A stretch of DNA of 64,000 nucleotides from Cristatella mucedo (taxonomy: Eukaryota > Bryozoa > Phylactolaemata > Cristatellidae): positions 6,447,501 through 6,511,500 of the forward strand of contig WPIO01000014.1 of NCBI GenBank assembly GCA_009760855.2, written 5' to 3'. Position numbers and translations under genes: made by a program. Positions 38,487 to 62,086 of this stretch are shown one piece after another. A model generated the notes under the pieces. That model saw only the letters and a list, made by a program, of their open reading frames with translations. It was not told the origin of the DNA and searched no databases. Each line of letters opens with the position of its first letter. Positions within the stretch are counted from its first letter, which is position 1.

Positions 38487-38618
38487 TGTACGGCAGCACA
38501 TGCCACGACAAAGAAGAATGCATCCGCCGTGGCCTCACAGACGGCACATGTCACGACAATGTGTGTTCTTGTTCTGCAGGCTATCTCTTTGCCACATCGG
38601 CCAATGGATGTATACAAA
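38487..38618 (+). CDS. Module exon 1
   Basis: 132 nt, phase 1-1. Acceptor TTACGTTTGTAG, donor CAAA|GTAAGA. Cysteines fit the pattern exactly ([28 protein letters not shown], then 12 residues to ANGC). A second, stronger-looking acceptor (TCTTTTTGCAG, ending 38454) upstream would be in a different phase. First module recognised; followed by a 5.05-kb intron packed with LINE copies. Confidence 0.85.

Positions 38619-62086: not shown

Follow-up and report, generated by a model that had tools for sequence, protein, structure and literature searches.

A run of 34 EB-like module exons that may encode part of the ectodomain of a giant membrane protein

The EB module (Pfam PF01683) was first described in C. 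elegans proteins as a domain of unknown function with eight cysteines per module, and to our knowledge it has been assigned no function. Classical EGF modules are recognised by a short gap between their second and third cysteines and a longer one between the third and fourth, and IgGFc_binding (PF17517) is the domain at the N-terminus of Fc-gamma binding protein. The authors who describe oyster proteins labelled IgGFc-binding discuss them as parts of mucus or adhesives (PMC6337334, available part), and pedal-mucus proteins of limpets have homologues in common within a group of the same label (PMC7333891, available part). The locus described here shares that label, and some of the mollusc proteins also carry EGF repeats; in the parts of the two reports available to us, however, the label goes with vWF-D domains (PMC6337334, PMC7333891), whereas at our locus an EB array, an EGF domain and KIAA1549-like repeats stand ahead of the IgGFc_binding domain, and an exon coding a hydrophobic helix comes after it. 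The term "EB domain" does not occur in the available part of the limpet paper (PMC7333891), and none of the open-licence PubMed Central papers listed in our searches had IgGFc together with an EB module or EB domain, or showed the whole architecture; one of them contains both EB terms and lacks IgGFc.

The window, that is, the whole stretch of DNA analysed, comprises 64,000 nucleotides of contig C55 (6447501–6511500, plus strand) in a genome of 572 Mb and 688 contigs. A six-frame pattern scan located 15 six-cysteine modules in it, all on the plus strand between 38501 and 62079, and their exons, of 129 to 138 nt each, occupy 38487–62086. From the scan, the splice sites and the reading frame, exon 1, the first found, was placed at 38487–38618, with exons 2 to 12 at 43670–43798, 43968–44099, 48792–48923, 49462–49593, 51373–51504, 53924–54052, 54139–54270, 57049–57180, 57279–57410, 58405–58536 and 58885–59016 and exon 15, the last in the window, at 61955–62086; exons 13 (59167–59304) and 14 (61528–61662) were placed from splice sites and frame. 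The original prediction of at least 15 phase 1-1 exons with a single module each was thus borne out in position, strand and length. All 15 are open, the acceptor AG lies exactly 14 nt 5' of the first cysteine in every one, the donor lies 7 nt 3' of the last cysteine in 14 and 10 nt in module 14, and joined together they form one open frame of 660 amino acids without a stop. One intron of the array, that after exon 13, has a GC rather than a GT donor (gcaagt, at 59305).

The predicted arrangement C-x5-C-x9-C-x4-C-x-C-x12-C is exact in 12 of the 15 window modules; the other three depart from it in one gap each, the last gap being 11 in module 2 and 14 in module 13 and the second being 8 in module 7. 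Six cysteines and one glycine are indeed invariant among the window modules; the GL pair, also predicted to be conserved, is a majority feature only, present in 11 of 15 and in 19 of the 34 modules known overall. A chance origin of the pattern can be set aside: its strict form matched 15 places in the window, all of them flanked by both splice sites, against none in 300 order-1 Markov surrogates. The same window holds four stretches whose open or broken frames resemble LINE-type reverse transcriptase pieces (14993–16579, 30911–31735 and 40298–40762 on the minus strand and 47336–48401 on the plus strand), two of which sit between EB exons, together with long CA and GA simple repeats at about 53021–53380, 5900–6100 and 34300–34450.

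The array does not end with the window. Continuing the window's numbering along C55, with 90 kb downstream covered, we found 19 further modules, exons 16 to 34, between 64193 and 91057, into which the phase 1 end of exon 15 leads; "at least 15" therefore holds and understates a total of 34. Every module exon is open and phase 1-1, the acceptor being separated from the first cysteine by 14 nt and the last cysteine from the donor by 7 or 10 nt, and the 34 joined exons code for 1503 amino acids without a stop. Exact 5-9-4-1-12 spacing is kept by 27 modules, module 34 being the most deviant (5-8-6-1-10), and 26 exons are 132 nt long, the remainder falling between 129 and 141. The introns measure 86 to 5411 bases, 11 of the 33 being shorter than 200. 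In the other direction, the phase 1 acceptor of exon 1 implies an upstream exon. The 38.5 kb between the start of the window and exon 1 and 35 kb of readable flank yielded neither a further module nor an N-terminal exon with a signal peptide, the 5 kb adjoining the window being read as N; five N-terminal candidates from three places, two of them with nearly identical sequence, were considered and none was convincing. A genome search with module 11 gave no sign of a second copy of the array, all 25 of the matches listed, from the best candidates scored, lying inside C55:6485992–6538023.

The profile comparison with the Pfam EB and EGF families, proposed when the array was first described, gave the modules a name. 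EB is the best family for the 15 joined window modules (E=7.9e-37, 125.6 bits against a curated cut-off of 24.3), and it was matched singly by all 15 of them at a limit of E 10 and by all 19 further modules at a limit of E 1. Single modules often fall just short of the cut-off, module 1, for example, scoring 22.6 bits; module 16 scores 24.8. In the genome search for EB, which scored 32 candidates, six places of the C55 array stood above it. The best stretch covers positions 16–52 of the 52-position profile when the 15 modules are joined, positions 1–15 being unmatched, and the array exons carry six cysteines where the family has eight; the missing ones could come from the neighbouring module. 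Classical EGF was considered and rejected for these modules, as none of the 34 fits a C2-C3 gap of 3–6 with a C3-C4 gap of 6–14, although the EGF signature CxCxx[GP][FYW] is present in 12. On profile and spacing, the array modules are best described as a six-cysteine form of the known EB family with a spacing of its own.

Downstream of the array and outside the window, C55 carries a series of further plus-strand exons. A truncated EB exon with four cysteines (92612–92698) comes first, then an EGF domain in two exons (95157–95258 and 96218–96259) whose best solved relative is Notch (E=7.3e-11) and which reaches Pfam EGF only at E=0.064, under the cut-off. Three KIAA1549-like repeats follow, the first (96464–96639 and 96749–96917) and second (101845–102026 and 109048–109219) in two exons each and the third (115616–116011) in one. 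Joined, they match KIAA1549 (PF12877) at E=3.6e-8 (32.7 bits, cut-off 24); singly they lie under the cut-off, repeat 1 giving no match and repeats 2 and 3 giving 14.6 and 19.7 bits. This likeness covers positions 179–241, about a tenth of the 676-position profile, and we rejected C55 as a KIAA1549 gene, which should match over most of it. IgGFc_binding is then matched by joined exons at 119562–119700, 121355–121620, 125537–125991 and 126706–126853 and another beginning at 127188 with its end not fixed (E=1e-34, 120.6 bits against a cut-off of 25.6, profile positions 3–283 of 297); a search for solved relatives of the IgGFc_binding exon gave none at E 0.1. The reading frame of this domain then continues into a Ser/Thr-rich stretch (28% of 239 amino acids). 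Finally, an exon at 138319–138590 codes for a hydrophobic helix and then basic residues, and a last exon at 138765–139157 ends in a stop; these two gave no Pfam match at E 1, the cytoplasmic part of KIAA1549 included.

We propose, with a probability of roughly 0.65, that the C55 array encodes part of the ectodomain of a giant membrane protein, of type I and from a lophotrochozoan-like animal, that runs from the EB modules to a cytoplasmic tail. In this model the 34 EB modules, one per symmetric exon, would be followed by the truncated EB module, the EGF domain and the three KIAA1549-like repeats, and these in turn by IgGFc_binding, the Ser/Thr-rich stretch, a transmembrane helix and a basic cytoplasmic tail, giving a single-pass protein of presumably well over 2000 residues. 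Some 49 exons over 100 kb are thereby predicted to be joined in one transcript. The array had been suggested to belong to a receptor, matrix or defence protein, and the EGF domain, the IgGFc_binding domain and the hydrophobic helix suit a receptor or a matrix protein, with the single transcript itself a prediction. From module 1 to the third KIAA1549-like repeat the phases match throughout and the joined exons code for 1945 amino acids without a stop; the phase 1 end of that repeat fits the start phase of the first IgGFc_binding exon.

The most substantial alternative, which we consider unlikely, is that two or more neighbouring genes lie here, one for an EB-array protein that ends at about 92.7 kb or slightly beyond and another for a separate IgGFc_binding protein, with the membrane exons belonging to either or to a third. 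Introns of several kilobases lie between the blocks, and on a splice-site scorer trained on the array's own exons, whose sites mostly score 5 to 15, some of the sites there are weak, with scores of -0.9 for the acceptor at 115616, 1.1 for the donor after 119700 and 2.1 for the acceptor at 121355. There were 13 options for the second of these, and it alone among those with a positive score agrees in phase with the following exon; an exon may therefore be missing at this point. These three edges lowered our estimate for a single gene and raised that for two. Between about 127.6 and 138.3 kb, from the IgGFc_binding exons to the hydrophobic exon, exons are not placed. As coding candidates, an inner part of the transmembrane exon ranked low, its coding score being negative, and the final exon ranked high; neither the transmembrane exon nor the tail has a clear relative elsewhere (best match off the locus E=0.05, and not on C266, the contig of the second locus below), so that these two exons might belong to another gene. 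Against a division into separate genes stand the fitting phases from the array to IgGFc_binding, uninterrupted by a stop, and the recurrence of the same order on one strand at that second locus.

The second locus lies on the plus strand of C266. Six EB matches, two of them above the cut-off, span 1565020–1583306 (our coverage of the contig leaves out about 1578–1599 kb); six modules were seen in the sequence of the locus, and for the five of them that were scanned EB was the best family, one standing above the cut-off. The one EB exon examined by eye holds a single module in phase 1-1, with 17 nt between acceptor and first cysteine and 4 nt between last cysteine and donor, and the C2-C3 and C3-C4 gaps are 6 and 4–8 in those six modules, compared with 9 and 4 in most C55 modules. 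A KIAA1549-like exon stands near 1617563 (tblastn E=5e-6 with a probe from C398 and 2e-4 with the third C55 repeat), with a possible second near 1610743 by eye, and at 1620694 lies the best IgGFc_binding match among those listed for the genome, which also has a Ser/Thr-rich tail and whose IgGFc_binding part is 32% identical to that of C55 over 161 columns. This repetition on one strand of the order EB, KIAA1549-like, IgGFc_binding supports the reading of C55 as one gene. The likeness in the KIAA1549 part is weak, since the third C55 repeat, used as a genome query, found only itself among the matches listed. No EGF exon was found in the 20 kb upstream of the C266 IgGFc_binding domain and no convincing hydrophobic exon in the 10 kb downstream.

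Elsewhere in the genome the two families mostly go their own ways, which favours neighbouring genes on C55. Profile searches gave at least 48 IgGFc_binding matches at E 1 and at least 26 EB matches at E 10, and most of the former lie on contigs without a nearby EB match among those listed. Among these same matches the pairing occurs only on C55, on C266 and perhaps on C255, where a weak EB match (3207661) and a weak IgGFc_binding match (3276106) are separated by 68 kb on the minus strand and stand in the opposite order to those of C55 and C266. Contig C398 has a KIAA1549-like locus, covered here over a 3.2-kb stretch, and no IgGFc_binding or EB match among those listed. Contigs C222, C56 and C676 carry clusters of IgGFc_binding matches, some with internal stop codons, which suggests an expanded gene family with pseudogenes.

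The same genome includes a mitochondrial contig, C688, of 21,008 bases, which carries three copies of one stretch (frames at 3078, minus strand, and at 11632 and 13747, plus strand). Its gene order, with genes named from their translations, resembles the molluscan or lophotrochozoan one. In its COX1, AGA or AGG occurs 11 times, and none of the ten such codons aligned to PDB chain 7o37_a falls on an arginine (four on Ala, three on Ser and one each on Thr, Gly and Lys), compared with eight of 12 other arginine codons; AGA and AGG thus appear not to be read as arginine, a pattern that fits the invertebrate mitochondrial code. COX1-like pieces with internal TGA on C166, C83, C549 and C299 are probably mitochondrial insertions in nuclear DNA.

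Returning to the array, we asked what its module sequences say about its history and use. Pairwise identity among the 34 modules has a median of 31% and a maximum of 47%, neighbours average 30.8% against 31.3% in random order (P=0.74), and a single exon-to-exon DNA match, 20 bases long, appears at E 1e-3. Recent tandem expansion was rejected on these figures: with pairwise identity so low and neighbours no closer than random pairs, the array looks old rather than freshly expanding, and the expandable cassette of variable module number originally envisaged finds no support in this genome. The module copies look old, while none of the 34 has lost its open frame or usable splice sites. They are enriched in N-glycosylation sites (21 against a mean of 12 in shuffled modules, P=0.006), and seven of the 21, in modules between 38487 and 91057, stand three residues before the third cysteine.

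These observations also bear on the idea of a recognition receptor diversified through combinatorial skipping of, or choice among, its 34 symmetric exons, or through differences between individuals in module number. Because every exon is phase 1-1, each can be skipped or joined without a shift of frame, and the modules are very different from one another (median identity outside the cysteines 19%). Symmetric exons are, however, the normal result of module shuffling, and the array shows no recent duplicates; we regard the idea as improbable. Its more specific form, in which the 34 diverged EB exons would be combined differently within or between animals to give many ectodomain forms in the manner of Dscam, seems to us slightly less probable again, and we know of no Dscam-like role ever assigned to the EB module. 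That the array encodes a polyprotein releasing small cysteine-rich peptides of the defensin or toxin type, to which a partial resemblance of the module to the CS-alpha-beta fold might point, is very improbable indeed, as none of the 33 linkers has two adjacent basic residues, EB is a far better match and the downstream domains ill suit a peptide precursor.

If the C55 exons do form one giant membrane protein, its most plausible role, which we put forward tentatively and at somewhat less than even odds, would be in adhesion or in contact between the cell surface and mucus, because the mollusc proteins that bear the IgGFc-binding label have been tied to mucus and adhesion. It is conceivable that the disulphide-rich EB modules form a long rod or a multivalent binding surface on which sites are carried at a distance from the cell, and that the IgGFc_binding part near the membrane ties the cell surface to mucus or matrix, resulting in adhesion or surface sensing. 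By the same analogy, immune recognition would be the next likeliest role.

The array is probably a striking case within a class of extracellular proteins that is known but little understood, and not a new kind of element; annotated molluscan proteomes may well contain the whole architecture without its having been remarked on. Its value lies in offering, with 34 EB modules beside domains of a surface or mucus type, a concrete protein in which the role of EB could be tested, alongside a similarly ordered second locus in this genome. If our reading is true, C55 would also exemplify a very long array whose modules are old and have been kept individually.
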